Part shown: positions 3,793 through 39,823 of the stretch, one piece after another
Layout: the number at the start of each line of letters is the position of its first letter
How positions within the stretch are numbered: the first letter of the stretch is position 1
Assembly (NCBI RefSeq): GCF_026210795.1
Contig: NC_089441.1
Location: forward strand, 372,001-436,000
Origin: Rhizophagus irregularis
Lineage: Eukaryota > Glomeromycota > Glomeromycetes > Glomerales > Glomeraceae
Reading direction: 5' to 3'
DNA length: 64,000 bases
Program-made: the position numbers and the translations under genes
The notes under the pieces: model-generated
The model's input: the letters and a program-made list of their open reading frames with translations, nothing else
What the model was told of the DNA's origin: nothing
Database searches by the model: none

Positions 3793-6541
3793 ATCCGTAG
3801 ATTTGAACACGTCTTACTATATGCAAATAATGTATCGTAAATGATTATTGTGATATTGAGAAAGGTTGACGGTCAAAAGTTATCAAGGTTTTGAGAAAGC
3901 TTTTCTTTCAAAATATATTATGTCATATATAATTATGCATATTTTGATTAATTATACTGTGATACTATTAGCTATTAGCCAATTTACCAATTTGGCTAAT
4001 TAACTAAAAATTTCTTTTACTTTAATCTTTTACTTACTTGATTCTGAACAAAATCTCTAACGTAGAGAAAGAAAATGAGATAAGTACCAAAAATCAGATT
4101 TATATACAATAAACTTTTCAACTTTTTGACATTTGTTATACAGTATATACTAAAATTCGTAGATGATACAACCTGATACTTTATATGAAACTTTCAAAAG
4201 GTATCGATTGATAGAAGCGTAGGACGAAGTTAACAATCCCAAAAATTATCAAGGTATAATTTATTAAATAAGATATTATAAATATAAGGAAGAATATTAA
4301 TATTATCGCCATTTTCAAAATAGTATACGCAATTTATTTGTGATTGTATATTCGAATACCAATATTCGCCCGGTTTTTGTCCGGTTTTTGTCCATATTTC
4401 GTCCGGTTTTCGTCCGGTTTTCGATTTTCTTTTTTTTTTATTCAATTTAACTGAATACATCATTTTGAAAATGGCGATAATACAAAGCTCAAACATTTAT
4501 TAATGACAAAAAATTATCCAAAAAAAAAATAAAATGACAAATATTTTTTTTTATGATATAAAGACTTAAACGTACAAAATTTTAAACCCGGCTATTTACA
4601 ATCACCTAATAATCTAATTCACGTATTGTGAAAATAACTAAAATAGTAATTTTGACGCAAACGGAATTTAAAATTTCTATTGTTTATTGTTAAAAAGCGA
4701 TATACATACAAATAATAATAAAATAACGACAAGTAACGATAAAAAACTTTGTTATTTCTATTATAAAGAAAAAAAATTTTTCAATAATTTTTTTTTTTTA
4801 ACGACATTCTTTTTTCCATTCCTTATTTACTGTATTTTATTTTACGTATAACGACAGATATCGAAAAAAAACAAACACAAAAATTATTACAAATCACGAT
4901 TATTTTGTATAACTTTGATCTTGTGACTTTTGACCTGATTGTTTCCAAGAATGGTAACAGCTTCTATAAATGAAAACATGGATCATCATCGTTGTTTCAT
5001 ATTCTCCCCTGTTATTTGTACCTTTTACTGTACGGGAGGCCTGTACCCTTTTTTAAAAAATGGAATGGAAATTTCCTTCGGAAATGTTTGCCTATTTTAT
5101 AATTATGGACCTTTTTTTAGAACCAGTAAATTTAGAAATTTGTAAAACCGAACAAAATTTTTAAGATTAGTCATCTAAGAAAATTTAAACCATTTTTAAA
5201 AATAATCGACATATCGACATATCAATAATAAAAAAAAATATCATATGCTTTCTAATGCAACTAATTATGAAATTATATATTCAACTCAATTTTAGGTTAA
5301 AATGATAAAACAAATATAATATTTATTTATATATTTAATATTTTTTATAAGTTTGAAAAACAACTTTTTGGAATAATAATGAGAAAATTATTTTATTATT
5401 TAAAAAACATTACATGCGTCACAAAATTAAATACTGCATTGTCTACATTTTATGGTATACAACATATAGTATTTGCAGATTTTGATAGTTTTTGGTATCT
5501 TTTTTATTTAAACAAAGAAAGATATATAAATAAATATTAAATATTTAATAAACACAAAAAAAAAATTATTTTTATTTTTATTTTTATTTTCTAATTTTTA
5601 TTTTTCTAACCATTTAAACCATAAACTAAAAAACAATTGGTTCTTAATTATATGTATATATATACTTTTTTTTTAAATAATGTCATATGTCTCATATGTA
5701 TGTAAGATATTGATTTCCTTGTTATAAAAAGAATTATATAAATAAAGTTATGCAATTATGTTTTTACTTTTATTGCTCATAATATTATCATTTAAAAAAA
5801 TCTCCTTGTATTTATCCATTCTTATTGAATCCATTTATGTTAAAAGAATTAGAACTTTCGAACGAATATAAATAATCCTGTTAATAAAACATATTAATTA
5901 TTTCTATTTGCAGTATAACAATTAAAAAAACAAAGGAAAAAAAAGTAGACGGTCGCACAAAACAATCGAACATTACCGATAATGCAACGTGACACAAAGT
6001 TTGATCAAATTAACTTCTATAATACATAAAACCTTTGAAAACTGTTACGTCCCTGATTTGTCACACCTTAAACATAATAACATTTTTGCAGCGATCTTGC
6101 TTATAATTATTCAGGATAAACATTTGCACATTTAAATTTTTGTAAACATAAACACACTGTAAAAATAAAGAAATTAGTACGGAGTTAAGTTACAAAAGTT
6201 TCGTAAAATTTTTTTTTTTAGGGTCAATTTGTTTGTAAATAAACTTTATGCTCAAACCCTGTAATAAAATTATTTACAACAAAATGACAAAAAAGAGTTA
6301 ATAATATTTCATATTATTTAAAATTTATATAAATAGGACCTTTATGAATAAAAAATTTTTTTTTCAAAATTACGAAAAAGTCCTCTTGTATTATATTTTT
6401 GGACGTTTGAAACGTCTTTTTTTTTATTTTATTTGCTGGGCAACCAAATATTAAAAATCCATCCAAAAAAAAATATTATCCCAAAAAAAAAAATACAAAC
6501 CTTGCATATATACATTTCTTTCATACATACCTCCTTACATC
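3793..6541. other. intergenic, gene-free AT-rich region
   Basis: Apart from the MITE at 4301-4482, I see only AT-rich sequence with homopolymer runs and simple TTTTA-type stretches (about 5570-5600). The 68-codon ORF at 4939 has no recognisable domain and was not accepted. The last 150 bp before 6542 contain poly-A/T tracts and probably the promoter of the secreted-protein gene, but no motif is clear enough to call. Confidence 0.5.
4301..4482. mobile_element. 182-bp MITE with perfect 20-bp terminal inverted repeats
   Basis: TATTATCGCCATTTTCAAAA at 4301-4320 is exactly the reverse complement of 4463-4482. The interior carries five short direct repeats related to CGTCCGGTTTT between about 4366 and 4425. 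There is no coding capacity. The target duplication is not resolved because the flanks are AT-rich. Confidence 0.7.
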
Positions 6542-7897
6542 ATGAATAAATACATTTTAATTTCATTGTTCCTATTTTTATTTATTGGAGACGTATATTC
6601 CGATTTTAATGTCGTAGGAAAAAGTTATGAATTTAAACCTACAACCGAACTTCGTAGTTTTTATAGTCAACAAAATGGAGATGATCCATCTAAAGGATAT
6701 CATAAAGCGGAGGTTTATTTTAAAACCAAAGTACCATCAGTAAACCCTGACCAAAATGGTGTAACTAGTATTGATTGTAGTGATGGTAATAAAATTACTC
6801 TTGGTTTAAATGATAAGAAAGCGATCGAAAAAGTTAAAGATTGGCCTGATAAAGTTATGTTATTAATCTCTCATAAATGGGAATGTTTTGGTGAAAAATC
6901 GACTCAAACATTTATGATTAAAAGTAAATCTATTGATACCTCCAATAAAAAAGTCACTTTTATTACGGAAAGTTGTAAAGTTTCTGATTGGTCAAAAGAT
7001 TTCATAATTGATCTTTCATGGGTAAATGGTTTAAGTAATAATCGTAATAATCGTCGTAAATTAAATACAAAAGCCTTAATTCCAATTCCAAAAATTGATA
7101 TATCCAACAAATTAAGTTTAAACGTCTTATTTAATGAAACAACAGGAAAATCTTCTTCACCAAATTTTCCTCTTTTACAAGATGAAAATCTCTCATTACT
7201 TTGTGAAAATTGTTTTTTAAAAGGTGATGCTACAATTTCGATGAAACTTGCTGGTAGTTTTGGTTTTTCATTAGATTTAACTGAAGCTTCAATTTCTCTT
7301 AATGGAAGCGCTTTAATGAACATTGACCTCTCTCTTAATGGTACTGCTGGAGCTGGTATTGGCTTTGATAAAATACTCCTTTCTATTCCTTTACCTGGAA
7401 ATTTTAATGTACCCAAGTTATTTTCTCTTGGTCCTTCAGTAGATCTTGTAGCTTCAACCAATATAACTACTAATGTAACTGGTTCATTAGGTTTTGGGGG
7501 TGATATAAGTTTACCGAATTTTAATGCAAATTTTACATTTATTGATGTAAAAAATCCAAAATTTACACAATCCGGTTTCAAACCTAAAACTAAATTACAT
7601 AAACCAAAATTTGGAATTGATTCTGCTTCAGCTGATGTTGCTGGTTCAATCAAACCACAATTAGCTCTTGGTCTTAATATATTAAATGGAGTTTTTGAAC
7701 AAAAACTTGGTTTTCAAGTAGTTGGAACTTTAAATAATAATATTTCTTTTGGTGGTAAAGGTAAAAATTCTTGTCTAAAAAAGACTCAACCACGTCTTAA
7801 AATTGACCTTAATGGTAATTTGGGATTTTTCATTAATGATGATAATTTCCCTGTAGTAGATTTTCCTTCTTTAAATTTATTAAATAAATGTTTATAA
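6542..7897 (+). CDS. secreted protein, DUF7029/DUF7223-like, paralogue 1
   Basis: A single-exon gene for 451 residues. A hydrophobic signal peptide (residues about 1-20, ending VYS before DFNVVG) predicts secretion. The N-terminal half (about 30-165) has a YHKAEVYFKTK segment, a Cys-containing SIDCSDG strand and VMLLISHKWECFG. This is the layout I associate with the fungal DUF7029 family. The C-terminal half (about 185-451) is a glycine/leucine/asparagine-rich, strand-prone region resembling DUF7223. It has paired cysteines (LLCENCF), many N-x-S/T sites and ends LLNKCL. Translation starts at the ATG directly before the signal peptide. A second copy lies 4.7 kb downstream on the same strand. 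No catalytic motif is visible; a cell-wall or extracellular role is inference. Domain names are from memory and are the least certain part. Confidence 0.85.
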   Translation: MNKYILISLFLFLFIGDVYSDFNVVGKSYEFKPTTELRSFYSQQNGDDPSKGYHKAEVYFKTKVPSVNPDQNGVTSIDCSDGNKITLGLNDKKAIEKVKDWPDKVMLLISHKWECFGEKSTQTFMIKSKSIDTSNKKVTFITESCKVSDWSKDFIIDLSWVNGLSNNRNNRRKLNTKALIPIPKIDISNKLSLNVLFNETTGKSSSPNFPLLQDENLSLLCENCFLKGDATISMKLAGSFGFSLDLTEASISLNGSALMNIDLSLNGTAGAGIGFDKILLSIPLPGNFNVPKLFSLGPSVDLVASTNITTNVTGSLGFGGDISLPNFNANFTFIDVKNPKFTQSGFKPKTKLHKPKFGIDSASADVAGSIKPQLALGLNILNGVFEQKLGFQVVGTLNNNISFGGKGKNSCLKKTQPRLKIDLNGNLGFFINDDNFPVVDFPSLNLLNKCL

Positions 7898-11100: not shown

Positions 11101-12552
11101 TTTTAATATAAAAAGTTCAATATAAAAAGTTTAACAGATCTATTTAAACTATTATCCTTTTTTTTTAAAAACAAATTTAACAATTTGCCTTGTGATGATA
11201 TTTTAAAATAACGTGCATTTGCATAACCAATTGTTTAATTCCAATGATACACATTGTTAAATTTTATCATAATGAAAAAAAAAAAATCAAAAATAGAAAT
11301 TGAATTTCAACTTGTAATAATAAAAGGTCTGAATAAAATTAGTCCATTCATCCGGATATCAAATTATGCATAGAAATTTCGTTTCGTCGCTCGTAAAAAT
11401 GTTTATCCGATAAAAGCTAAGAATTCGATAAAGCTAAGAATTCACTAAAAAAAAAAAGAATATTAAGAAATTTCTTATGATTTTAAATTATTCTTAATCT
11501 TGAAATTGTAATCGTACCAGGATATAAACCCGTTAAAACCTGAGGTTATTCGTTCTTAAAATGAAGAAAAATGTTCGTTATTAGGACTTTTCAATTTTCC
11601 AATATTGACTACTTATTTAATTGCTGTCATTTTTTTAAAAAAAATTTTCAATTTAATTGACTGCTTATTAATTTGCTGTCACTTTTCTTTTTTTTTACAA
11701 TTCTTTGTTTTTTTTCGGTCTGTTTCCTTTATTGGGTAATTGAAATTTTCTGATCGCTTAAAATTAGTAAATCATAAATAAAGATTTAGTAAATCAACGT
11801 AAATCACATATTTTAAACCACGCGGTATAACCTCATTCTTATTAAAGAAGTGAATTTCATTATTTTGAATTTTTAAATAATTAAAGTTTGTAATTGTTGT
11901 CACGTTAATGACACTTTACTTTAATCATGATTTCTTGATTGTCAAATTATACCGTGGAACCATGGAACAATCCATGTAAAAAAAGGTCGATCCGTTTTTT
12001 ATATTTCATCTTATTTCCGTAAAAGGCTCATATTTCCGGAATTAATAACTTTATATCATGAATGAAATTTATCGAATAATTTACATTTTCCGTCAATAGA
12101 TCCGTCAAATGCTCATTTTTTACGGAGTTTTTACGGATAAAATTTTTATAATACTTTCTTCCAATATATGAAATATGCAAACCTTAAATTTATTAAACTA
12201 AGTTTCCTGATAATCCAATGAAAAAATGCATTCATGTAACTTTAAAAAATATTCAATTAATTAAAAAAATTTTCTATATAAATCCTCGTCGTTATCGAAC
12301 AAAAAAAATCTCTTCATCTAATAAAAACAAAACATTACTCAAATAATCCTTTTAAACATTCTTTTTTTTTTAAAAAAAAAAACCCTGTTTAAAATATATT
12401 CCAATATTATTATACACGAATCAAATACCCTTTAATTTACATTTTGTAATTTAAAATTACATTTGTAATATAACAAACTTTTCCGTAATTTTTTTTTTAT
12501 CCTCAACCAACTTAATATTGGAATATTTATTTCCCTTTTCGAAATTAAAAAA
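8101..12552. other. 4.4-kb intergenic region between the secreted-protein paralogues
   Basis: No convincing gene. Small features are a set of short imperfect repeats of AGTGAAGTGATTGCC type at about 9445-9510, a TTTCAATATAAAAAG repeat at 10985-11130, and a near-duplicate pair of about 50 bp around 11590 and 11645 (TTGACTGCTTATTAATTTGCTGTCA-like). ORFs at 8341 (+) and 8795 (-) are short, low in complexity and have no recognisable features. Confidence 0.5.
10985..11130. repeat. short tandem repeat, 13-16 bp unit
   Basis: About ten imperfect head-to-tail copies of TTTCAATATAAAAAG and the shortened form TTCAATATAAAAAG. No relation to neighbouring coding sequence is seen. Confidence 0.8.
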
Positions 12553-13923
12553 ATGTTCAGGTTCATTATAAATTCGCTTTTATTCATCTTCTTTTTTAGA
12601 ATTGTTACCGCATCAAAAGATTTTGGTGTTGTTATGGGTAAAAAAGATTTTAAAACAACAAAATCCCTTCTCGCTGTTTATAATCAACAAGATGCTGATC
12701 CTTCAGATGGTTATCATCAGGCTGAATTTAATTTAAAAACGGATTTACCATCATTTAATCCTGATCAAAGTGGTGTAGAAAGTATTAAATGTAAAAAAGG
12801 TTCAAATGGTAAAAGAAAAATTACTTTCAATTTAAAGGATAAAAAAGCGATTAAAGATGTTAAAGAATGGCCTGAAAGAGTTATGTTATTAATTTCACAT
12901 AAATGGAAATGTTTTGGTAAAAGGTCTACCCAATTTTTTACCGCTACTGATAGAGTTATTGATGAATCTAATTTATCTGCAACTTTTGCTATTATGAGAT
13001 GTGATTATCCTTATAATTCTAATGATTATGAACTTAATATTAATTGGGTTGAAGGGGTTAATCAATCAAAGAATAAAACTCGTCGTAATTTAGAAGAAAG
13101 ATTCGGTATTCCATTTCCAACAATTAATTCGAGTAATAAATTAGGTTTAAATATCTTATTTGATTCAAATAATGGTAGAACTTCAAGACCAAATATACCA
13201 ATTATAAATGATGGTAATGTTAGATTACTTTGCTCTAATTGTTTTACAAAAGGTGATGCTACTATTGCTGTAAAAATTAGGGGTAATATTGTTCCTCCTA
13301 AATTAAAAGAAGCTTCAATTTCTCTTGATGGAAATTTTCTTATGAACCTTGATTTTACTCTTGATGCTTCAAAAGAAAAAAATAAAAGACTTAATCGTAA
13401 AAATACTTCTGCAAAAGATTTTCAAATTTTTAGTATTGGTTTAGGTCCTTTTAATATACCTGGTATATTAAATCTTGGTCCTTCAATTGATCTTGTTGCT
13501 GCTGCTGATGCTACTTTAGAAACAGGTGGAACTCTTGAATTTGGTGGTGATCTTAGTTTACCAAATTTTAGTGCTAGAGCTTCATTTAAAGGTGATCCAA
13601 GTTTTGATCAATCAGGTTTTACTCCTAAAGTTAATGTACATAATCCAGATTTTGATGTTGAAGCTTCTGCTACTATTTCTGCTTCATTAAAACCACAATT
13701 TGCTTTTGGTTTAAGTGTACTTAATGGTAGAGTTTTAAGACAAAAAGTTGGTTTTGAATTAGTTGGTACTCTTCAAAATTCTTTTATTTTTGGTAATTGT
13801 GAAAATAAGAAAAAACCACGTCTTGATTCTTCTCTTGGTGGTAATGTAGGTTTTTTTGCAAATGAAAATAATTTTCCTATATTTACATTTCCTACTTTAC
13901 CTTTATTAAATAAATGTTTATAG
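12553..13923 (+). CDS. secreted protein, DUF7029/DUF7223-like, paralogue 2
   Basis: A single-exon gene for 456 residues, collinear with the gene at 6542. It has a signal peptide (about 1-21, ending IVTAS), then YHQAEFNLKT, a SIKCKKG strand and VMLLISHKWKCFG, and the same LLCSNCF cysteine pair and LLNKCL terminus. I estimate more than half of residues identical to paralogue 1 in the N-terminal domain. The middle differs: after the LDFTLDASKEK segment this copy has a basic stretch (about residues 275-295, NKRLNRKN) where paralogue 1 has a glycine/alanine-rich strand. The start ATG follows an A-run and immediately precedes the hydrophobic signal. No intron signals interrupt the ORF. Function is unknown; export is the only firm inference. 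Confidence 0.85.
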   Translation: MFRFIINSLLFIFFFRIVTASKDFGVVMGKKDFKTTKSLLAVYNQQDADPSDGYHQAEFNLKTDLPSFNPDQSGVESIKCKKGSNGKRKITFNLKDKKAIKDVKEWPERVMLLISHKWKCFGKRSTQFFTATDRVIDESNLSATFAIMRCDYPYNSNDYELNINWVEGVNQSKNKTRRNLEERFGIPFPTINSSNKLGLNILFDSNNGRTSRPNIPIINDGNVRLLCSNCFTKGDATIAVKIRGNIVPPKLKEASISLDGNFLMNLDFTLDASKEKNKRLNRKNTSAKDFQIFSIGLGPFNIPGILNLGPSIDLVAAADATLETGGTLEFGGDLSLPNFSARASFKGDPSFDQSGFTPKVNVHNPDFDVEASATISASLKPQFAFGLSVLNGRVLRQKVGFELVGTLQNSFIFGNCENKKKPRLDSSLGGNVGFFANENNFPIFTFPTLPLLNKCL

Positions 13924-17558: not shown

Positions 17559-20500
17559 CTACTCATCATCTTCGTTACAGAATTCTTTGGTAATCCCTGT
17601 AAGTCTTGGTTGTAATTGAGGCATTTCTAAAAAAACAAAATGATTAATTAAAAAAGATTATAAATATCAAAATTAAATAATATAACAAAATAACGTCTCA
17701 CCGGCCAAAATTTGTTTACAGGATAAAGAAACTTTCGTATAATCCAAGTTCAAAAACGTTAATTTTGAAAGTCCTGTATTAAAATATATATATATATATA
17801 TTAGATCGAATATATCAGGTCAAAATACATATAATACAACGCTAATAAAATTTACCTTTAAGTTCTTTTACACCTTTATCTGTAACACGAGTGTATCCAA
17901 CGTTAAGATATTTTAAGCTCCTAGGGGAAAATGCAGAATTACCAATTATTCGTAAAGATTCATTTTTAATCTTCGTTTTACTTAAACTTAAGTGCGTCAA
18001 TTCTCGTAAATCTAAAAATCATAAAATTTTAGTTTTTTTTTTAAAAAAAAAATAATTTAAATAATTTAAGTCGTAAATTTCGATGAACTAACTTCGTAAA
18101 TTAGCCACACCGATATCTGTGATGCATGTTCTATCAAGATACAATTCAACCAAGTTTTCTAAACCTGATAATCAGAAAAAAAAAACTAATTAATAACTCA
18201 GTAAATAAATAATATATAAGGTTAATAGTGCATACTTTTTAAGGCTGTCATTCCAGTATCAGTTAATTTAGTTCCAGATAAGGATAAATACGTTAAGCTA
18301 TAATAAAAAAAATTTTTTTTTTTTTAATAAATAAATCTGAGAAAAAAATTCGTTTAATAATAAATTAATTAGTACCTTTTCACAGCTTCAATGCACAAAA
18401 TACCGACATCGGTAACATTTATGAAATTTGTTAAGTCGAGCTTGTTCAAAGGCAATTCTGAAAATAATAAAAAAATCAATTACAATTAATGAGCCGATAA
18501 AAGAGCCGATAAAAAAAAGCACATTCTTCTTACCAGAAAAGTCTTGCAATACATCATCTAATTCTTCTTCTCGATTCGGAAAGTTGATAAAGTTAAGAGA
18601 CTTGTACTCTAAACAATAAAATTATGATATCAAAAATAACGAACATTAATCAATAATCAAGATAACAGTAAATATACCTTTTGCCATCCATTTCAACCCG
18701 AATTGACCAATTCCAGTAGTTTCGGTCAGGTTCAAATCAACAAGATTTTTAAATCCACATAATATTTTCATTACATCTTGATCACAAAGTTTCGTTCTGG
18801 AAATATCCAAAAACTCTAAACTTTGGAAACTTGAAGGATTAACTGGAACTTGAGGTGGTGTCAGTAGAGTACTGTCAAGATTGAGTGAACGTATGTTCAC
18901 CAATGCTGTATTATAAAATCATTAATTATTAATTAATCTACGGTCTTGGAAAAAACACATTACGAATTTAAAATAATATTTACGCTGCAAATCTAAAAAC
19001 ACTGTCCTTCCATTAACACCATTACAGTACGATAAATCCAACACTTCCAACGTTTTTGCGAAAGCGCAATTTGCAAATAATTCTCTCAAACCACTTATAG
19101 TTACTTTTGTCTTCGATAAATTCAAATCGGTTAAATTCTCGAATCCTATAATTTTTATTTTGAACAAAAAAATTATTTATATAAAACAAAATTTATGATT
19201 AAAAAAACCCTATTATTAGCTAATAAATTTAAATACCTTGTAAAGCTGGAAGAGCACGATCTTTAACCCTACATGACGAAACATCTAGCGACTCTAAAAA
19301 TAACAACCCTAAATAATCCAAATTTTTAGTTTAGTTATCAAGTAATTAAAAACAATACATAAAAATCGTTATAATTTTATTAAATTGAACCTTGTAATCC
19401 ATTCAATCCTGTATCAGTTAATACTTCGCATCCTCTTAAGCTAACTCTTGTAACTGAAGCACGTTGAGTGTTACCGATAACTTCCAATAAGGAGTCAGTT
19501 GCTCGCGGATAATTATCCAATATAATATTCTGTAAATTACTGTGATAATAAACAATTGAATTATTAAATTTCAATAACTTTGATAGTAATGAGAAATCAA
19601 AATTAAACATTATTCACCAATTCGCAAATCGTCTAAAAGTAAGAGAATCTAATTTGTTTAATTTTATCAACTCTGCCACTAATAATTCACCAATGTTGGA
19701 TGAAACATTAGCAAGAGAACGAATTATTCTGACACTTGTAGCGGAAGTCAAGAGTACTAGTAATAATTATTTACTGTTAGTCACGAATATCTTAGAAAAT
19801 AAATAAAATAAAATTAAACTTACCAGCAACACAGTATGCACATTTTGACTTTAAGCTTTCAACCTGTAATTCACGTTTGATACCCTGTCTTACAGCGTTA
19901 TCATGTATATTTTCTTCGGTATTTACTCTCGTTTGTATAGCATCAGCCAAACGCTGTCTTTTCTCTTCCTCGGTTTCGACTAATACAATAATCGTCAATT
20001 AACAAATATAGTATAGAATCTTTCTAATACCTTTTTCAATTATTTAATGTTACAAACCATGCTCTTCATTTGGATCAACTGAATCTTGAGGAATAATTGG
20101 ACCATCAGTTAAACGATGACCTCCACCAGAAAACGGTGGAGGTTGCATACCTCTCGGAATATTTGGTGGAAAACGACCTCGAAGTGCCCGAATTCGTGGA
20201 GGTTGTCCAAAATTTGGAGGAAAATTTGGCGGAACGTTATTCGGAATCACGGGAATTTGTGGTGGCACTTGCGGAGGAATTTGTGGCAGGAAATGCGGAG
20301 GAACATTAGGTGGAATATTGTTTGGGATCACGGGCTGTGCAGAAATCTGTGGCGGAGCTTGTGAAGGAACATTTAATGGAATATTGTTCGGGATCACGGG
20401 CTGTACGGGAATCTGTGGCGGAACTTGCGGATTCCCTATCACATGTCTTTGGCTACTACCACCATCATCATCGTCGTCGTCATTGTCATCATCGTCATCA

Positions 20501-21552
20501 TCGTCGTCATCATCATCATCATCTTCTTCTTCTTCATCATTATCATCAGATTCAATATCCAATCTCCTATTTGAAATCTTTGAAGTATTTGAAGTCCGTG
20601 ATTTCACTGCTGGCTGTTGTGGTTGTTGAGGCGAAATATCAAGTTTTACAACATTCAAAGAAGCATTTGGTACCAAACCAACATCTGCGAGGGTCATATC
20701 CATTTGATCATCTCCAAATACTTTTCTGGGAAATGGTAACATCAATTGAAATGTTTTACTCGGTTCATTCTCATTAGATACCCATTCAAATAGATTAGAA
20801 ATTTTCGTAGATGAGGAAAATTTTTGACGAATAGCTTGACCAGTTGACAAACGTATCTGAATAAGAGCAGTATTCTGTGAAGGTTTTGAGGAAGTTTCAG
20901 GTTGAGAAGCAGTTGAACTGCTTACACCAATATTACTTTCTTCACTTCCACTTGTTTGATGTACTAATTTTCGTTGTTTATTCCTTATCCGATCTTCTTT
21001 GATTGCCAACAATGCTTTATTACGAGCTTCGCGTTCCATCATCTTCTGCTTCTTAGCTTCTTCCGCTGCTTTTACTGCTTTAGCTCTACTTTCTTTGGTA
21101 TATTCTGATTCATCAGCTGGTTGTGAATGACGAGATACCAAAGCTGGTTGTGGAAATGAACTCGACTGTTAAATTATTTAATCATTAGTAAACCAAAAGT
21201 TGTAATTGAAAAAAAAAACTTAATTGCTAAAATATTACCGTAGCAGTATCAAGCGACATCGGAACAACGTCATTGGATGACGGTCTTAAGGAGAGTGTTG
21301 TAGTAGGACGAGAAACCCCCGAGTTCGGATCCAAAGCATTAAGAACCCTTCAATATTTTCAGTTAAAGTATAATAATTAACAAAATATAAAAAAATCAAT
21401 AATTTTTATTATTATGTATTATATTGTTACCACTCGGTAGCGTCTTCTATGGTTCTATTACATGCAATTGCTTTTCGACAAACCCATTCGTCAAAACCAA
21501 AAGAAAGTAATTGAGCCAACATAACATCTTTATCTTGTTGATTTGGATCCAT
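17559..21552 (-). CDS. UBA-UBX-leucine-rich-repeat protein
   Basis: Multi-exon gene read right to left. Exons: 21552-21431, 21347-21239, 21165-20058, 19979-19824, 19756-19618, one starting at 19539, then small LRR exons to the TAG at 17559-17561. Joins checked by frame through 19539. Residues about 5-41 form a UBA-like ubiquitin-binding domain (MLAQLLSFGFDEWVCRKAI). A basic helical EAKKQKMMEREARNK stretch follows, then a UBX domain (about 180-255; IQIRLSTGQ...TLADVGLVPNASLNVVKL), an acidic Asp/Glu run, a Pro/Asn repeat region and a series of LRRs with cysteine-containing LDLSYCNG- and LNLDYTKV-type repeats (AMN1/F-box-LRR style). UBX proteins are Cdc48/p97 cofactors, so a ubiquitin-selective adaptor whose LRRs choose the substrate is the inferred role. 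The acidic run is encoded by GAT/GAC/GAA repeats and may vary in length. Protein roughly 850-900 residues. Confidence 0.8.
20425..20560 (-). repeat. trinucleotide repeat encoding an acidic tract
   Basis: Runs of CAT/CGT/CTT on the plus strand read as GAT/GAC/GAA on the coding strand of the UBX-LRR gene, giving a run of more than 25 acidic residues. The in-frame microsatellite lies between the UBX domain and the proline-rich linker. Confidence 0.85.
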
Positions 21553-24895: not shown

Positions 24896-27800
24896 ATGTT
24901 TATTAAAACGATGAGTGACGTGGCATGTGAAAATTGTAGCAAAAAGTACATAAAGGTGTTTTATGAATGGTGTAAACAATGTGAAACAAATAAATTAAGA
25001 AAAAATTTTGCAAACTGGACTAGTGGAAATGATAAAATTGATAATTTTATCCAAGAAAAGCAATTAGAGATTAATAACTCACGGGATATTGTATGTGAAT
25101 GGATACCATATAATAAATTTCTTGACATCAAAGAAGTAGATAAAGATGATATTTCTACAATATATTCGGCAAAATGGGAATATGGTCCATTAAAATGGAA
25201 TAATTATAGTAAGACATATATAAGAAACTCAAAAAAAGTTGTATTAAAATTAAAATGTTTACATAATTTACAAAATGTAGTTGAATTTCTAAATGAGGTA
25301 AAATTATTTTATTGAATTTGAAATTCATTTTTAATATAATAATAATTTATTATTTTGTATTTTATAGGTTAAAATATATTCAACTAATTTTAATATATTT
25401 GGAATATCTCAAAATCCAGATACAAAGGGTTATATTATAGCTTTGCAAAATAATTATTCCTACTGTATAAAATGTAACTATGTGTATACCAATGTAAGTT
25501 ATAAATGGTGTAAAGGATGTGAAACAAATAAATTAATTACAAACTGGACTAGTGGAAATAAAAAAATTGATAATTTTATCCAAGAAAAGCAATTAGAAAT
25601 TAATAGCCTACAGGATATTGTATTTGAATGGATACCATATAATAAATTTCTTGATATCGAAGAAGTAGATAAAGATGATTTTTCTACAGTATATTCAGCA
25701 AAATGGGAAGATGGTCCATTAGAGTGGAATAGTAATAGTAGAAAATATATAAGAAATCCAACAGAAATTGAATTAAAATTAAAATATTCACATAATTTAC
25801 AAAATGTTGTTGAATTTTTAAATGAGGTAGGATTTTTTATTGAATTGAAATTTACTTTAATATAATACTAATTTATTATTTTGTATTTTATAGGTGAAAG
25901 TATTTTCAACTAATTTTGAGATATTTGGAATATCTCAAAATCCAGACACAAAGAGTTATATTATGGTTTTACAAGATAAAGATTATTATTGTATACTGTG
26001 TAAAAGTAAAAAAATATATACTGACGAAAATTATAAATGGTGTAAACAATGTGAAATAAATAAATTAAGAAAGAATTTTACAAACTGGATTAGTGAAAAT
26101 GAAACAATTGATAGTTTTATCCAAGAAAAGCAATTAGAAGTTAGTTATTATAATGATATAATATTTGAATGGATACCATACAATCAGTTTAATGACATTA
26201 AAGAAATAGGAATGCATGATCATATTACTGTATATTCAGCAAAATGGAAAGATGGCCCATTAGTATATGATAAAAATATAAGGAAATACAAGAGAAATCC
26301 AGATGAGTTAGTTAGATTAAAATGTCCATTATTTAAGCAGGAATCATTAACGCTTTTTAAAAAGCTACTATTATTATTTAAAGAACAAAATACAACTAAC
26401 GAATTCTTAAATAAGGTATGAAAATTTATAGACTTGTGTTCACCAGAACTAGGTCAGTTTACTCTTTTTCTTTTTTGTAGATAATTTACTTAATTTTTTT
26501 TAATATATAGTAATATTTTTTCTTTGGATTTTAATAGGTTAAAAGATATTTTATGGTGAATAGTAATAAGATGTATGGAATATCTCAAGATCCAAATTCA
26601 AAAGAATATTTAGTTATTCTTAACGGTAGTTGTGTAAAGTGTGGTGAAATATATATCAATATATTATATGGATGGTGCCCATGCCAAATAAATAGTAGTT
26701 TATACTATTGGCCCAAAAGTGGAAATAAACAAATTGATAATTTCATTAAAAAAGTGCAATTAAAAATTTGTAAGTATGATGATATAGTATTTGGATGGAT
26801 ACCTTACAATCAGTTTATTAATGTTAAAGAAATAGGTCAAAGTGATTTTACTACAATATATTTAGCAAAATGGAAAGATGGTCCATTAGAGTATAATATA
26901 AATACAATGCAATATGAAAGGAATCCAAACAGAGCAATTACTTTAAAATGTTTAAATAATACACGAAACATGATTAATGAATTCTTGGACAAAGTATGTA
27001 TACATAAATTTAATTTACTTGATTTACTTTTAATATAATAATAATTATTTATCTGTCTTATATTTTTCGATAGGTTAAAGTGAATTCAATAGTTAAGGGA
27101 AGTAATGTTCTTAATAATATATATGGAATCTCTCAAAATCCTGATACAGGTAATTATATTATGGTTCTCCATGACAAATATTTTGAAAAATATTTTGAAG
27201 GACATTGTATAAAGTGTGATAGGATATATGCAGATATACGTAATAAATGGTGTAAATCATGCCAAATAGATTATTTTAAAAAATTCTTTATTAGTATAAA
27301 CAAAGAAATTGATAATTTTATTCAAGAAATGCAATTGAAAATTAATAATCATGATGATATAGTATTTGAATGGATACCATATAATCAGTTTAATGATATT
27401 AAAAGAATAGGTAAAAATGGTTTTGCTACAGTATATTCAGCAATATGGAAAGATGGTTTATTAAAGTATGATATAAATAAAAACCAATATATAAGAAATT
27501 CGAATACAAAAGTTGCTTTAAAATATTTATACAATTCTCAAAATATTACCAATGAATTTCTCTATGAGGTATGTAATTTTTCTATAAATAAACTACAATA
27601 CTTTATATTGTGTAATAATCAATTTTTTTTTCATTAGGTTAAAGCTTATTCAATAAATAATTCTGGTAAAATACTTAAAGTTTATGGAATATCACAAGAT
27701 CCAAATACAAAGGATTTTATCATGGTTCTTCAATATGCAGAAGGTAGAAACTTTGATTATTGGATATATAACAATTACAAATATTTTAATTGGTCGAGTA

Positions 27801-28507
27801 AATTAAAAATATTAAATCATATTATTAGTGGTCTAAAAGAAATTCATCAAAAACAAATGGTTCATCATGATTTTCATGTTGGAAATATATTATTTAATGA
27901 AATTTTTGGAATTTCTTCAAATATTAAAATATATATTTCAGATATGGGATTGTGCAGAGAAGTTGGTAATATAGATAAAACAACTATTTATGGAGTTATG
28001 CCTTATGTAGCACCCGAAGTATTAAGAGGAAAACCTTATACTCTAGCGGCAGATATATATAGCTTTGGAATGATTATGTATTTTGTAGCAACGGAAAAAC
28101 AACCTTTCGCTAATTGTGCCCATGACGAACTTTTAGCATTAGATATATGCAAAGGAATTAGACCCGAAATAAATGAGCCTGAGGCACCAAAATGTTATAT
28201 TGATTTAATGAAAAAGTGTTGGGATACAGATCCTAACAATAGACCAGATGCTATTAAAGTAGAAGACTCTATTAGATTCTTATATAATTCATATTTTGGT
28301 CATGGTTCAATTAACAAAGATTATGAAATTGAGAAACAATTCAAAGAAGCAGAAACATATAGAAGAAACAATCTTTCATTTTTCAAATATATCCAATTAG
28401 ATACTCATCCACAAGCTATTTATACATCTAGGTTACTTAATCCATTCACTAAAGATCTTGAAAAGTATGATAAATCTGAATGTTTGGAATGTGAAATTAT
28501 AAATTAG
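24896..28507 (+). CDS. kinase-family protein with five tandem zinc-ribbon/N-lobe modules
   Basis: Six exons: 24896-25297, 25368-25826, 25894-26415, 26538-26993, 27074-27568 and 27638-28507, about 1067 residues from the ATG at 24896 (24911 also possible). All five introns are phase 0 and fall at the same codon, after EFLNE or its variants. Exons 1-5 each contain a Cys-x2-Cys...WCKxC zinc ribbon, an IDNFIQEKQLE helix, and the kinase N-lobe (EWIPYNxF...TVYSAKW...ALK) up to helix C. Exons 2-5 begin with the next kinase segment (VK...GISQNPDT..YIMVL) and run straight into another zinc ribbon. Only exon 6 has a full C-lobe: HHDFHVGN (HRD position), SDMG (DFG position), APE, and HPQAIYTSRLL tail. 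Module 5 has the best glycine loop (IGKNGFATVY); modules 1-4 are degenerate there. Catalytic Asp and VALK Lys remain in the last kinase, so activity is possible. Family: TKL-like kinases expanded in Glomeromycotina. Confidence 0.75.
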
Positions 28508-31467: not shown

Positions 31468-34400
31468 TCTATATAATAAAAAAATTCATGTCGATCTTCT
31501 AACGTTTAGATTAGCCTGTATAAATAATTTTTGAATTGTGTACCGCATATCAGATGATTCCTTTTAAATAATATTTTTCATATGTGATTGGTAAAATGAT
31601 TGACAAGTTCATGATAAAATATCTGCGCCTGATCTATACTTAAAAGGTTAAGATAACTTGATCAGCAAATACTGATTACTAAAATATAATAATTTTCGAT
31701 CAACTAATATTTATTTGATTTTTCTTATACCTTTTTCATAATAATATAAAAAAAAGATTTGTAATAATGATAGATTAATACAAACACGATGATTAATTTT
31801 TTTAGTAACAATAGATTTCCTACAATGTGTTATTTTGCGATATAGATTTTTTTTCATCAATTTTTTTTTTGTAATTTTAAATTCCTGATAACTAATATTT
31901 TGTTAATAACATATAACTTTTTTAATAATAATTTTTTACTAACAATATTATTTTTCATAATAGATCAGCAATTGATGTTTTATTAATAATAGATAATTAA
32001 TTTTTGTTAATAATAATAGATTCTTATACCAGATTTTTTTGCAACAATAAAAATTGTATAATAGTGTTTTTGTAATAAACCATTCTTTCATAATAATAGA
32101 TCATTCTTAAAATAAAAAGATTATAACAATAAGATATTTAAAATTGTTCTTATAAATATATAAATAAATTATAAATTCCATTTTATTACAAGATCTATTT
32201 CATATAATAATAAAATTTGTGTCAAATCTTTCATCAATATAACATATAATATTATTAATAGATATGACTTCTAATCAGAGAACTTTTCAAAGTGAAACAC
32301 CTAGAGAACGAAAAAGAAGATTGAACAATGAACGCCAAGCTGCCCATTATAGAAGAAGACAAAGAAGACAAAATAACATTAGCATAGAACGTCATGATCT
32401 AGGAAGAATGGATCAGATTTGTACATATTGTGGTGCCAAATTTTGGATGAATGAAAAAGATAAGCATAGTACCCAAAATTCTCCATCTTTTGCTGTATGC
32501 TGTGCTGGTGGTAAAGTCGGGTTACCACCTTTGCTCAGACCACCCCCATATTTGATGAATTTGTATACTTCACTTGAACCTGAAGCTAATGCATTTCGCA
32601 GAAATGTTAGAAGTTACAATAGCCTGTTAGCATGCACATCTTTTGGGGCTGATGTAAATGGGGAATTTCAGAGGAGTGGATTATCTAATTTTACTATTCA
32701 TGGCCAAGTTTATCATTTTATTGGTTCATTATTACCAAATGAAGGAGAAGCACCTAAATTTGCTCAATTGTACATTTATGATACTGAAAATGAAATGAAT
32801 AATCGACTCAATATTATGCAAAATGTAGATGTAACAATTTTACAAAACTTGCAAAATATGCTTGATGTAGCCAATCCTTATATACAAGTCTTTAGACAAG
32901 CACGAGATATTATACAAGCATCTGAAACTTCTGATGTATCAATGGTAATTCATGGTGATTGTACAAAAAATTTACACAGATATGAAGCACCTACATCATC
33001 TGATGTTGCTGTCCTCATGATTGGAGATGGATGTGATATTGAGCCATCAAATCGTAATATTTTACTTAGACAACGTGAAGGAGGTTTACAAAAGATATCT
33101 GAATTGCACCCCTCTTATGATCCTTTGCATTATGTATTATTATTTCCAAGAGGTGATAATGGTTGGCATCCAGATATACCTCTTCTAAGGTCTAGAAAAA
33201 GAAATAGAGTGACACAAATGCAATTTTATTCTTACAGATTACAGATCAAAAATGGTGATTGGATACAAAATACTGGTAGATTATATCAACAATATATTGT
33301 TGATCAGTATGCCAAAATTAAACAAAACCGTTTAAATTATTTGAGAGAAAACCAGTCAACTCTTAGAATTGAATGTTATCAAGGAGCTGTAGATGCAATA
33401 CATGCAGGAGACAGTGCAAATAATATTGGGCAACATATTATTCTTCCATCAACATTTTCTGGAGGACCACAACAAATGTACCAATTATACCAAGATGCAA
33501 TAGCAATTGTACATCATTTTGGCAAGCCTGATCTTTTTATTACATTTACATGTAATCCAAAATGGCCAGAAATTACAAGAGAATTATTACCAAACCAAAC
33601 AGCTGCAGATAGACCAGACTTAACTGCTAGAGTTTTTAATATGAAATTACGAGAAATGATGAAAGATCTTTGTGAAAGACATTGGCTTGGAGAAGTTGCT
33701 GCTTATATTTATGTAATAGAATTCCAAAAAAGGGGATTACCACATGCACATATTTTACTTATATTATCTACTGAAAGTAAAATACGATCAATAGAAGAAT
33801 ATGATTTATTTGTTTCTGCGGAGATTCCTGATTATGAACTTAATCCTTCAGCATATGAAACTGTAACAACTATGATGATGCATGGTCCATGTGGTATACT
33901 AAATACATCATCCCCATGTATGAAAGATGGCAAATGTAAAAAACATTATCCCAAAGATTTTCAAGAAACAACACAAGAAGGTCCTAATGGCTATCCACTT
34001 TATCGTAGAAAAAATAATGGTTGTTATATTGGAATTCAATTAGACAACAGATGGGTTGTGCCTTATAATATCAAATTAGTAGAAAAGTATCATGCACACA
34101 TAAATGTTGAGATTTGCAATTCATTATTGGCTATCAAATATTTATATAAATATATATATAAAGGCCATGATCGTGCAACTGTAACATTTTCTCAAAATGT
34201 TAATAGAACAGATAATAATGAAATAGCAAATTCAAATAAAACATTTAATGAAATTAAAATGTATTTAGATGCACGATATGTTTCATCATCTGAAAGTATA
34301 TGGAGAATTTTTCATTATAAAATGCATGGAGGTAAACCTAAAGTACAGAGATTAGCAGTTCATCTTCCAAATCACCAGATGATCGCATTTTCTGGAAATG

Positions 34401-36838
34401 CCAATTTAAATAATATAATTAATTGAGAAACTATACACAAAACAACTTTAACTGCTTGGTTTGAAGAAAATACAAATAATTCTAATGCACAAAATTTAAA
34501 GTATATTGACTTTCCAACCCATTATACTTGGAATAAAGATGAATGTAAGTGGAGTTGCAGAATAAATAATACAGGAACAATAGGACGCCTATATATGGTT
34601 CAACCAACAGAAGGTGAACGATACTATTTACGAATATTACTTACACATGTATCAGGAGCTACATCTTTTAATAGTTTAAAAACTGTTAATGGACAAATAT
34701 GCAGAACTTTTAAAGAAACTTGCATTCAGCTTGGTCTTCTTCAAGATGATTGTGAATGGAATATATGTTTACATGAAGCAAGTACTATGAAAACAGAAAA
34801 ACAGTTACGACATCTGTTTTCAATGATTCTTCTTATATGCCAACCTACAGCACCTGAATTGTTATGGAATACACATAAATTGGCATTATGTGAAGATCTT
34901 TTATACCATGCACAACAACTTTCTCCATTTTAAACTATTACTTTAAATGATATAATAGAAAATGAAGCACTTATACAAATAGAACATTACCTTCAATCAA
35001 ATGAAACATCTTTGAAAAATTTTCCTGATATGCCAATTCCCTCAACACAAAATACATATCACAATTCTACTGATAATGATTTGGATCGATTGCTAAATGA
35101 AGAGAGATCATACAATACTACTGAACTAGCCAGACAAGTAAACCAAAATATTCCTTTATTAAATAGAGAGCAGTTTCAAATATATGAAGAAGTTATGCAA
35201 GCAGTTAATGATAAATATGGTCACTTCTTCATAGATGGTTTTGCTGGTACTGGAAAAACATTTCTCTATAATACCTTACTGGCTACTATCAGATTACATG
35301 GTGATATTGCAATAGCAGTAGCATCTTCTGGAATTGCTGCTTTATTATTAAGTGGTGGTAGAACAGCACATTCTAGGTTTAAAATTCCTTTAAAAATAGA
35401 TGAATTTTCAACATGTAATATTTCACGTAATAGCCAATTAGCATGTTTAATTAATGCAGCAAAACTTTTCATTTGGGATGAAGCTCCTATGATGCACAAG
35501 TTTGTATTTGAAGCAGTTGACTGAACATTTCGTGATATTACACAGATAGACAGACCATTTGGAGGAAAGGTATTTGTTTTTGGAGGAGATTTTCGGCAGA
35601 TTCTACCTGTTATACCTCATTCCCGCCGTGCAGATATTGTTTTAGCAAGTTTGACTCAGTCATCCTTATGGAGCCATATTAAAGTTATGAAACTATCAAC
35701 CAATATGAGACTTCAGCAAACTTCTGACTCAGTAGAAAATTTAAAACAAAAGGAATTTGCAGAATTCCTTTTAAAGATTGGTGATGGAACATATACAATA
35801 AATCCTGGTACAGAGAATATGATTACTCTTCCTTCCAATATAGTAATAATTAAAGGAACTTTGAGAAACCTGATTGATTTTGTTTACCCAGATTTAGTTA
35901 ATAATTGTGGCAATGCAGACTATATGGTTAGTAAAGCAATTTTAACTCCAAAAAATATTAATGTTGACATCATTTCTGATATAATAATGGATCAACTTCC
36001 TGGAGAATTTGTTTCATATCCCAGTGCTGACTACATAAATTTACCAGAAGATGCAGTAGAACAACCTCAACTTTATTCACCTGAATTTTTAAGATCTTTA
36101 AGAATTCCTGAACTCCCTCCTGGTGAATTGAAATTAAAGATAGGAGTACCAATTATCCTTCTACGAAATTTAAACCCATTTGAAGGTCTCTGCAATGGAA
36201 CTAGACTGATCTGTTGTGGATTTCAGAGTAAAGTTATTGATGCTGAAATTATAACAGGTTCACATATTGGTAAACGTGTATTTATTCCATGTATTACACT
36301 TACATCATCAGAAACCAAACTGCCCTTTGTTTTAAGTCGTTGACAATTTCCTGTACGTGTTGCATTTGCAATGACAATTAATAAATCACAAGGACAAACT
36401 TTAAGCAGAGTTGGTATTTACCTACCTGAACCTGTTTTTGTGCATGGACAATTATATGTTGCATTCTCAAGAGTAACCTCACATCAATACATTAAAGTTC
36501 TTATAGACAATACTCCCAATAGTGATGATTCTATTACAACAAACATTGTATATCATGAAATATTTTACTCTATAAATAGAATTTGTGTTTAATTGTAACA
36601 TTTTATATATAATATAGTAATAACTTTTCATATGTAAAATTTACATTACATGATAACAATAAAGATATGATTACATGAATTATCTGCATTTTTTGTCTAA
36701 TATTAATATAATTGTAATGATATCAGTAGAAAATCTGGAAATGGTTACATGGGTATACTGCAAATATATTGCTATATTACTCTCTTTGTTATTATTGTAT
36801 CCTCCATTCCCCAGCGCAGCGCAACGGGTTACACCTAG
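31468..36838 (+). mobile_element. Helitron, autonomous type but decayed
   Basis: Proposed 5' end TCTATATAATAAAA at 31468 with A before it; 3' end ...GCGCAGCGCAACGGGTT...CTAG at 36838 with T after it. Insertion between A and T, a 5' TC and a 3' CTAG preceded by a GC-rich short hairpin are the standard Helitron terminal features. It encodes the RepHel ORF at 32264-36592. The exact 5' base is uncertain because TATATC is repeated several times at the junction. Confidence 0.8.
32264..36592 (+). pseudogene. Helitron Rep/helicase (RepHel), interrupted by four in-frame stops
   Basis: One continuous frame of 1443 codons with stops at 34424 (TGA), 34931 (TAA), 35522 (TGA) and 36341 (TGA); no frameshift is needed. 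The N-terminus is basic (RERKRRLNNERQAAHYRRRQ) and followed by a CTYCGAKFW zinc-like motif. The Helitron-like N domain includes the HUH motif GLPHAHI (about residue 490) and the tyrosine region YLYKYIYKG (about 625). The Pif1-type helicase has Walker A GFAGTGKT (about 35235), Walker B DEAPM (about 35477), FGGDFRQILPV and [11 protein letters not shown]. In life the protein would nick, unwind and rolling-circle-mobilise the element. The stops make this copy inactive, but the even domain preservation indicates recent inactivation. Confidence 0.9.
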
Positions 36839-37952: not shown

Positions 37953-39481
37953 CTAAAGTTTAGTAAAATCTATTGGTTCTACGAAGTCTATATGATAAAG
38001 ATAATTTTATATTAATAAGCATTTAAGAATTATTTTTGCGAAAATAAGCTTAAAAAATATGAATTACCTGAACAATCAAATGATTTATCATCATCCTCAC
38101 TATCAATAGCATTTTTTTGTTCTAGAAGATTTTTAAAGTCTAAAAGTTTACTTGCTTGAGGATTCGTACCAGGATTTAATAATGGAGGAGGTAGATTTTC
38201 ATTATTTCTATCTGCTTCTTCAATTTGCTTGTTGATTTCATATTCACCAACACCATAACTACCATAATAATCTTCCAATAAATCATTTATTTCTTTTGCT
38301 TTAGGCCGTTTTAAAGGATCTGTATCCCAACATTGTTTGATAATATTTAAAATTAGTTGGGGAATTTTATAATTAGATTCTGGCCTATGCCCACCGCAAA
38401 TGCTAATAGCTAAGTTTGTATCACGAGTCATATCATGATAAGGATAATTCCCTGTACAGACTTCATATGCAATAATTCCAAATGAATAAATATCACTTTC
38501 TTGAGTATATTTTTTTCTTTTTATAACCTCAGGTGCTACATAAGGTAATACACCATATATTTCTTGATCTTTAGAAGGACTTACATTTGCTGGTCGACAC
38601 AATCCTAAATCAGTAATAAAAGTAATAAGACTATGACCAATCAATATATTACCACAATGAAAATCACGATGAATTAATCCCTTTTCATGAATATTAAGAA
38701 GTCCACTTGCAATCCTTCCTAAGATATCTAACTTATCTTTCCATTTCATTAATTTAAAATTATTATTTAAATATTGTCTTAAACTGCCATTGTCTGCATA
38801 TCTCATTACCATCATAAAATTACCAGATTTTGGATCTTTAGTAATTCCATAACAGCGATTTACATAAAGTGATCCAGTCATTATATGTGATCCAATCTAA
38901 AAAGAATACATACAAGTTAGTTTAACATTTATAAATTCAATATATTTATATACTAAGCAACTCACTTCATTTAAAAATTCGGCTGTAATATCTTTGGAGT
39001 CATTTAAACATTTTAAAGCAACGTAAATCTTACTTCTGTACCATTTATTATTTTCAGAATCCCAACATCTTATATAACCATCTTTCCAAAATGCTTTATA
39101 AATAGTTGAAAATCCACCTTTGCCCAAATATTTAATATTTTTAAATCTGGCATATTCAATCCACTCTAAAAATTCTATATTATTATTGGCTTCAAGTTGC
39201 GTTTTTTTAATAAACTCATCAACAACTTCATTTCCACTAGCCCAATTTTTGAAATTTTGTTGAAAATGGTTGGCATTACATGGCCGACACCAAGTATCAC
39301 CAGTATTACCAGTATTAGGCTGTTTACATTCTTTGCACAAACCATTCCTTCTATAACGTTCTTTTGATTCTTCATTTAATATTAGCCTATCAATTAATAA
39401 ACTTTGTTCATCTGTTAAATCCCGATAGTTAAAATCTTTTATTTGTTCAAGTACATCGCTACTGAGCATAAATTCTTCCAT
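37953..39481 (-). CDS. zinc-ribbon TKL-like protein kinase
   Basis: Three exons: 39481-38966, 38896-38068 and 37987-37953, giving 459 residues. The last exon supplies ...DFVEPIDFTKL and the stop at 37955-37953; without splicing, the frame would read on to a chance stop at 38030. Residues about 45-75 hold a CKECKQ...WCRPCN zinc ribbon, then a VDEFIKKTQLE helix and the kinase domain: glycine loop LGKGGFSTIY, VALK lysine, EFLNE helix-C Glu, HRDFHCGN catalytic loop, TDLG (DFG position), APE, and DIYSFGIIAYE. The C-terminal tail has the family's NPQASKLLDFKNL segment. All key catalytic residues are present, so an active Ser/Thr or Tyr kinase is likely. The first intron lies at the same EFLNE position as the introns of the 24.9-kb gene, confirming common ancestry. 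Gene lies between two Helitrons. Confidence 0.88.
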
Positions 39482-39823
39482 ATTTGGATAATAAAAATGA
39501 AGAGTAAAAAGGAATTATTATTATTTTTTTTTTAAAAAAAACAGCATTATAAAACGTATTGCAGTCGCACAGCAGCGATCGACAAATCTTTTTTTTAATT
39601 GAGGCGAATGAGGCGTTCAAAAAATCAGCTGATGATCACAAATGAATTTCGGTAAGAAATTTCTTTTTATAGAAAAATAAAAATACTCCGTAAGACAAAA
39701 TTACAAAATTAACTAGCTTATTTTGTTATTATTTGTGATTATCATTATGTATTATTGTAACGAAGTAAAAAACAACCTTAATCTTTATAATTAATTCAAT
39801 AATATGTTTCAAGATTCAATAAA

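Follow-up and report, generated by a model that had tools for sequence, protein, structure and literature searches.

Half-kinase arrays in Rhizophagus irregularis: a gene with five N-lobe modules and one C-lobe, and the family to which it belongs

What does a gene encode in which one half of the protein kinase fold is repeated five times and the other half occurs once? The question is raised by a locus of the fungus Rhizophagus irregularis, in a stretch of 64,000 nucleotides (nt) referred to here as the window (C13:372001-436000, from a genome of 146,748,485 bases in 32 contigs). At positions 24896-28507 of its forward strand, modules composed of a zinc ribbon and a kinase N-terminal lobe (N-lobe) follow each other in front of a single C-terminal lobe (C-lobe). 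A first-pass annotation, made from the letters alone, saw here one odd gene; the architecture is family-wide, and the internal units look like maintained pseudo-N-lobes under weak constraint.

Anatomy of the gene

The gene consists of six exons, i.e., a start exon, four chimeric internal exons and one C-lobe exon, separated by five introns that are all GT-AG and in phase 0. The P-loop (glycine-rich loop) motifs are given in brackets.

24896-25297, + strand: exon 1, 402 nt; start codon at 24896 or 24911; zinc ribbon CENC..WCKQC; strands b1-b3 and helix C of pseudo-N-lobe 1 (VDKDDIS)
25298-25367, + strand: intron 1, GT-AG, phase 0, 70 nt
25368-25826, + strand: exon 2, 459 nt; b4-b5 of N-lobe 1, zinc ribbon 2, pseudo-N-lobe 2 (VDKDDFS)
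25827-25893, + strand: intron 2, GT-AG, phase 0, 67 nt
25894-26415, + strand: exon 3, 522 nt; b4-b5 of N-lobe 2, zinc ribbon 3, pseudo-N-lobe 3 (GMHDHI) with an insertion before helix C
26416-26537, + strand: intron 3, GT-AG, phase 0, 122 nt
26538-26993, + strand: exon 4, 456 nt; b4-b5 of N-lobe 3, zinc ribbon 4 (second knuckle WCPC), pseudo-N-lobe 4 (GQSDF)
26994-27073, + strand: intron 4, GT-AG, phase 0, 80 nt
27074-27568, + strand: exon 5, 495 nt; b4-b5 of N-lobe 4, zinc ribbon 5, last N-lobe (GKNGF)
27569-27637, + strand: intron 5, GT-AG, phase 0, 69 nt
27638-28507, + strand: exon 6, 870 nt including the stop codon; b4-b5 of the last N-lobe, the only C-lobe (HHD, SDMG, APE), C-terminal tail

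All five introns begin immediately behind the final helix C residue (EFLNE, EFLNE, EFLNK, EFLDK and EFLYE, respectively), i.e., inside the N-lobe, between helix C and strand b4. Each internal exon therefore holds b4-b5 of one N-lobe, a zinc ribbon, and b1-b3 with helix C of the next N-lobe. Since a complete N-lobe is assembled across an intron, the repeat in the protein (zinc ribbon plus N-lobe) is shifted relative to that in the exons. The spliced frame is open over 1,067 amino acids from the methionine at 24896, or 1,062 from that at 24911, and encodes five units of zinc ribbon and N-lobe followed by the single C-lobe. Homologous modules joined in phase 0 at one and the same place, with one catalytic lobe at the end, had been described in the first-pass annotation. 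Exon 1, with 402 nt, is smaller than the 460-520 nt that it gave for the homologous exons.

The C-lobe encoded by exon 6 is that of a eukaryotic protein kinase (Pkinase in Pfam, E 2.7e-30); its HHD, SDMG and APE motifs were identified by reading. For modules 1-5 (0/5), Pfam gave no kinase match at E values up to 1, within the filters of HMMER. Since Pfam does not recognise the modules, such genes may well be entered in surveys as ordinary single kinases. The zinc ribbons retain two cysteine pairs in 5/5 modules, as had been noted earlier, except that the second knuckle of module 4 is shortened to CxC; their Pfam matches lie under the curated cut-offs, and metal binding is only predicted. Modules 1-4 lack the P-loop glycines expected of a kinase, and the degeneration reported for these four loops is evident. 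It is not confined to them: the last N-lobe, in which the b3 lysine and the helix C glutamate are present, has an altered loop as well in the sequenced isolate, with GKNGF where the paralogs on C8 and C16 have GKGGF. Since, in addition, HHD stands in place of HRD, the window-gene kinase may be weakly active in this isolate.

The assignment of the internal modules as N-lobes draws on their homology to the last N-lobe and on an AlphaFold2 model of a relative of 771 amino acids, P0134 (alignment of 25 rows; mean predicted local distance difference test score 76, predicted template modelling score (pTM) 0.57). In this model, two internal units appear with the order of strands and helix of the last N-lobe: strands 88-97, 100-107 and 127-134, helix 156-174 and strands 175-180 and 187-191 in an internal unit, and strands 423-432, 435-442 and 462-469, helix 476-485 and strands 496-502 and 509-514 in the last N-lobe. 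With the whole model as query, the top solved matches in Foldseek are kinases, including RIPK2, BRAF, JAK (7t6f, 8ewy, 4oli), MET and a duplicated EGFR kinase (9p9u). RIPK2 and BRAF would suggest membership of the tyrosine kinase-like group, yet JAK and MET are found as well, and these are matches of structure rather than placements in a kinase tree.

Repeats are prone to misassembly and two related paralogs carry frame breaks, so that separate dead pseudogenes or an assembly error have to be considered; both are extremely improbable, as the outcomes that the first-pass annotation had named as fatal to its claim look unlikely. The modules are merely 44-67% identical to each other in protein and are homologous copies, not an assembly stutter, and the introns of just 67-122 nt leave little room for separate genes. 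Isolate B3 (model P0122) has the same five modules in the same order, with 13 amino-acid differences from the window gene, distributed as 1, 0, 0, 2, 3 and 7 over the six exons. Moreover, the gene models of B3 and the OCT59 gene models join the modules.

The family and its N-lobes

Chimeric exons were sought in the genome with a 65-residue junction probe and two further probes, one of them for arrays without a zinc ribbon, covering at least 150 places each. Merged, the three yielded at least 391 distinct chimeric exons in at least 134 clusters, 53 of which are single matches. These counts, which are lower bounds, rule out a single odd gene. Among the matches listed from the three probes, contig C16 alone carries 154 of the 391 exons. 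Fifteen places were examined in detail, with five shorter stretches replaced by longer ones of the same places. They contain 104 full modules, beside 14 partial matches of which some lie at the ends of the fetched stretches. In 98 of the 104, the end of the N-lobe model is directly followed by a GT, a dinucleotide whose frequency in this sequence is 4%; for 90, an acceptor that is in frame and carries the expected motif lies further on. Two of the six modules without this GT are cases where the model match stops one or two residues early; the other four belong to one array of five modules (L028, C16:1336691-1339870), in which the intron may be shifted. The longest gene read in DNA, at C2:1368174-1379018, has 22 exons, GT-AG introns in phase 0 throughout and an open frame of 2,983 amino acids with 21 N-lobes and one C-lobe.

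The same picture emerges from proteins, nearly all of which are database gene models. A search with the spliced protein gave 542 matches, and the best 120 of them were scored together with the window gene. Several N-lobes followed by exactly one C-lobe are found in 102 of these 121 proteins, while 12 are without a C-lobe and seven have two or three. R. irregularis, R. clarus and Glomus cerebriforme are the organisms named among the matches listed, and the architecture is present in three species. A search with the C2 gene added 44 proteins, 24 of them with 9-25 N-lobes and one terminal C-lobe. Among the others, some contain several complete kinases and some are unrelated kinases; two are arrays in which no C-lobe was recognised, and a further array has two. 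The largest database model, P0241, has 25 N-lobes. The C-lobes of the 102 proteins show the HxD pattern in 89 (HRD 59, HHD 18, HCD 9, HSD 2, HHG 1), DxG in 88 and APE in 98. By a strict pattern, the zinc ribbon is present in every module in 29 of the 102, in none in 20 and in some in 53; as a defining function it is thereby ruled out. Two R. clarus proteins, P0265 and P0267, have five and three complete units of N-lobe and C-lobe in tandem; either the repeat pattern differs here or gene models have been fused. P0276, a kinase whose name refers to GvMRE, the endosymbiont of Glomus versiforme, also matches the family; it has a single N-lobe, whose P-loop is intact, and may have been transferred from the fungal host.

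Comparison of the 102 last N-lobes with 683 internal ones revealed a sharp difference. The central P-loop glycine is present in 98% of the last and 7% of the internal N-lobes; the corresponding figures are 96% and 20% for the following position and 86% and 41% for the first glycine. The b3 lysine is found in 98% and 83%, and the helix C glutamate in 94% and 50%, with 29% of the internal rows ending before that site. When ordered by distance from the C-lobe (92 non-redundant proteins of the 102, ten having been dropped as redundant), the fraction with the central glycine is 0.98 for the adjoining module and then 0.11, 0.13, 0.05, 0.07, 0.07, 0.02, 0.05, 0.06 and 0.00. At the same nine internal positions, the b3 lysine stays at 0.78-0.90 and the tryptophan of WIPY at 0.80-0.98; the internal modules largely keep this tryptophan, DGPL and the b3 lysine. 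Gradual decay away from the C-lobe would yield a slope, and a step is seen instead. The window gene is one of the few exceptions at the last position. In addition, the nearest relative is the last N-lobe of another gene for 84 of 92 last N-lobes and an internal module for 579 of 617 other modules. Together, the nearest-relative split and the step point to two N-lobe classes of long standing, used for catalysis and for arrays, respectively.

These counts bear on the possibility that the internal modules are a reservoir which feeds the last N-lobe by gene conversion, like the silent cassettes in antigenic variation. The copies are tandem, similar and recombining, as such a system would need. However, an internal module is the nearest relative of only eight of the 92 last N-lobes, in four cases from the same gene, which disfavors a reservoir, and the last N-lobes of the window gene, its paralogs and R. 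clarus P0121 fall into one group (98/92). This explanation is very improbable.

The internal exons are symmetric, and omission of one would preserve the frame and place helix C of one unit directly before b4 of another further on. The first-pass annotation had accordingly proposed that exon choice provides proteins with one to five modules, or with alternative N-lobes before the one C-lobe. Two OCT59 models, P0123 and P0137, map exactly onto arrays on C16 and use the predicted introns at the module junctions. P0123 begins at module 2 of 10, and neither model skips a whole internal module, P0137 being covered for residues 1-904 of 1,281. In each, three modules are interrupted by an additional frame-preserving intron of about 160-320 nt, and one of these introns removes nearly all of a P0137 module; the B3 model omits 24 residues of exon 1. 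Such extra introns (L041, C16:1095760-1101078 and P0122) may reflect exitron-like splicing or an annotation artefact. The OCT59 models are presumably the RNA-guided annotation of PMC10234402, where, in the part available to us, gene models are described as built with Illumina and refined with Nanopore RNA reads. Five of 120 short database proteins have the motif pair of helix C and GISQ across a junction; they carry NCBI/UniProt names and are taken as gene models, hence not as independent RNA evidence. The symmetry of the exons and the extra introns thus speak for a splicing cassette, but no whole module exon is skipped in the two mapped models, and before the last N-lobe the P-loop glycines are mostly missing, so that catalysis with an earlier one would make a poor kinase. 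The sharp contrast between the last N-lobe and the others also argues against interchangeable N-lobes. Variety by exon skipping, formally possible as it is, seems improbable.

Constraint, turnover and a possible role of the array

The number of modules varies: five in the window gene, six in its C8 paralog, nine in its C16 paralog and ten in the closest R. clarus protein. In a tree that included six of the nine C16 modules (two were broken and one had no set start), the three modules nearest to the C-lobe correspond type by type among the paralogs, and it is the number of distal modules that differs. The first six R. clarus modules form a group of their own (94/91, below the star line of the tool). 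Two inverted copies on C16, with 10 and 11 modules, are 96.4% identical over 6,354 bp. In the C2 gene, modules 4 and 13 are identical including their introns, and 5 and 14 are nearly so; blocks of modules have thus been duplicated, which fits unequal exchange. The origin by unequal crossing-over suggested in the first-pass annotation agrees well with these repeats and with paralogs of 5, 6 and 9 modules.

Two further kinases in the window bear on the starting state:

38030-39514, - strand: family kinase, single N-lobe with intact LGKGGF; zinc ribbon; GT donor in the corresponding position; read in frames 38897-39514 and 38030-38896
54968-57899, + strand: another family kinase, single N-lobe with intact LEKGGF; a GT follows helix C (EFLNE) within a few bases

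As both have one N-lobe with an intact loop, the family likely started from this state. An internal exon with b4-b5, a zinc ribbon and b1-b3 with helix C would then have arisen and multiplied, most likely through unequal exchange.

Constraint was estimated from the ratio of non-synonymous to synonymous substitution (dN/dS, NG86), with the same six C16 modules. The C-lobe exon gives 0.10 (one pair), the last module 0.28-0.39 (three pairs), and the positionally matched internal modules of the three paralogs 0.33-0.82 (eight pairs; two more gave no value). The fourth exon of the C8 copy has a frame break and hence no dN/dS. For the 19 internal modules of the C2 gene, the ratio of means is 0.44 (167 of 171 pairs). 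Simulated random mutation at 0.05 per site predicts about eight stop codons in the four internal exons, where none is observed. The internal modules are under constraint, though a weak one.

Weak constraint raises the question of whether the array does anything at all. In a neutral ratchet, symmetric phase-0 exons would multiply by unequal exchange as an extra in-frame module is harmless, and the internal N-lobes would have no function beyond not disturbing the kinase. Values of dN/dS of 0.76-0.98 in several internal pairs, some recent C2 pairs with dN at or above dS next to identical modules in the same gene, the frame breaks in the C8 and C16 paralogs and the differing module numbers are what such a process would leave behind. 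It accounts poorly for a P-loop loss that is a uniform step and no slope, for the retention of the tryptophan, DGPL and the b3 lysine, for 104 full modules against 14 partial matches, for long arrays that stay open (21/21 modules in the C2 gene) and for the presence of the architecture in three species. We regard it as possible but rather unlikely.

The reading towards which we incline, with slightly better than even confidence, is that of one spliced kinase with four units of zinc ribbon and pseudo-N-lobe, a fifth zinc ribbon with the catalytic N-lobe, and the C-lobe, in which the internal units serve as a binding or regulatory array. In its favor are the single terminal C-lobe, the step in P-loop loss with the b3 lysine and tryptophan kept, the kinship of last N-lobes across genes, the absent stop codons, the dN/dS of the positional internal modules and of the C2 gene, and the modelled fold of internal units. 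What they show is the build and its upkeep; the role in binding or regulation is a proposal. RAF-type kinases activate one another via N-lobe contacts, and pseudokinases often serve as scaffolds. The internal units would no longer bind ATP productively and might act as tandem surfaces that recruit partners to the one kinase or keep it inactive or active. Such control could operate through contacts between N-lobes or between N-lobe and C-lobe, as in RAF-type dimers and pseudokinase-kinase pairs, and an altered number of modules would shift binding strength or the choice of partner.

Several observations weigh against a functional array. The internal dN/dS values lie well over the 0.10 of the C-lobe exon (one pair), other internal pairs range from 0.47 to 0.98, including 0.88 and 0.98, and dN is at or above dS in several of the most similar C2 module pairs. 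The frame breaks in the C8 and C16 copies indicate that some family members decay. The P-loop of the last N-lobe itself is altered in the window gene, and reads VKGGF in isolate B3. With 20 of 102 proteins devoid of zinc ribbons, zinc ribbons cannot provide the general function. The two classes of N-lobe are not perfectly clean, as module 4 and its counterparts form the sister group of the last N-lobes in the small tree (98/97). With a pTM of 0.57, the P0134 model gives no reliable arrangement of the modules.

A more far-reaching proposal, which we put forward only tentatively, is that half-kinase arrays are a new class of signalling proteins, in which the N-lobe, freed from ATP binding, is used like an ankyrin or WD40 repeat, in up to 25 copies of fast-changing number and with one kinase output. 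They might offer a largely clonal fungus a fast-evolving repertoire for intracellular recognition, perhaps of partners, nuclei or endosymbionts.

Surroundings and known systems

The remaining features of the window are of other kinds. A Helitron element at 32243-36343 (+ strand) shows Helitron_like_N and PIF1 helicase matches in successive frames split by stops. An exon of a UBX-domain protein, with an acidic run and a proline-rich tail, lies at 20050-21168 (- strand). Two long frames at 6455-7897 and 12469-13923 (both + strand) match DUF7029, the second below the cut-off for this family and also with DUF7223. At 50001-54000, the GC content drops to about 11.5%, far under that of the remaining window.

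Surveys regard the kinase fold as one domain; here, half of it occurs as a repeat on its own, in hundreds of exons of a single genome and in three species. No paper on repeated N-lobes was recognised in searches of the open-licence literature. The kinase expansion of R. irregularis, with 2,533 kinases (PMC10234402), is treated as a matter of family size, location and methylation, and not of N-lobe arrays, in the parts of the reports available to us (PMC8647823; PMC6123716; PMC10234402). Half-kinase arrays offer a concrete lead on why this fungus carries so many kinase genes, and their natural series of 1 to 25 modules can be used to probe the roles that a kinase N-lobe has without ATP.

The closest known system is that of the expanded R. 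irregularis kinases themselves (PMC10234402, as far as available), two of which are the one-N-lobe members in the window. They have the C-lobe, the kind of zinc ribbon and the helix C intron in common with the window gene. In contrast to their one N-lobe with an intact P-loop, the window gene has four N-lobes with degenerate loops before the last.

Other tandem kinases repeat the whole fold. JAKs contain one whole additional kinase fold. As in the arrays, a degenerate copy precedes the working one in the same chain in the JAK/TYK2 tandems, to which the Foldseek matches 7t6f, 8ewy and 4oli belong. In the arrays, however, the repeat comprises the N-lobe alone and brings no C-lobes with it, and the models counted have 3 to 25 copies; the window gene, with its single C-lobe, has no second complete kinase fold and is not a tandem of the JAK type. 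Plant tandem kinase proteins consist of whole kinase domains, usually two. Like the window gene, they combine kinase and pseudokinase parts in one chain, with a role in resistance (Yr15/WTK1; PMC6170490, as far as available), but they have no array of half domains. The kinase-domain duplication of EGFR (9p9u) resembles the arrays as an in-frame duplication of kinase exons within a gene. It is intragenic and somatic, and adds one extra copy of the whole domain.

Dscam, finally, has tandem arrays of symmetric homologous exons and is defined by their mutually exclusive splicing. The likeness lies in the exon arrays, whereas in the two OCT59 models mapped here many such exons are joined in a row.
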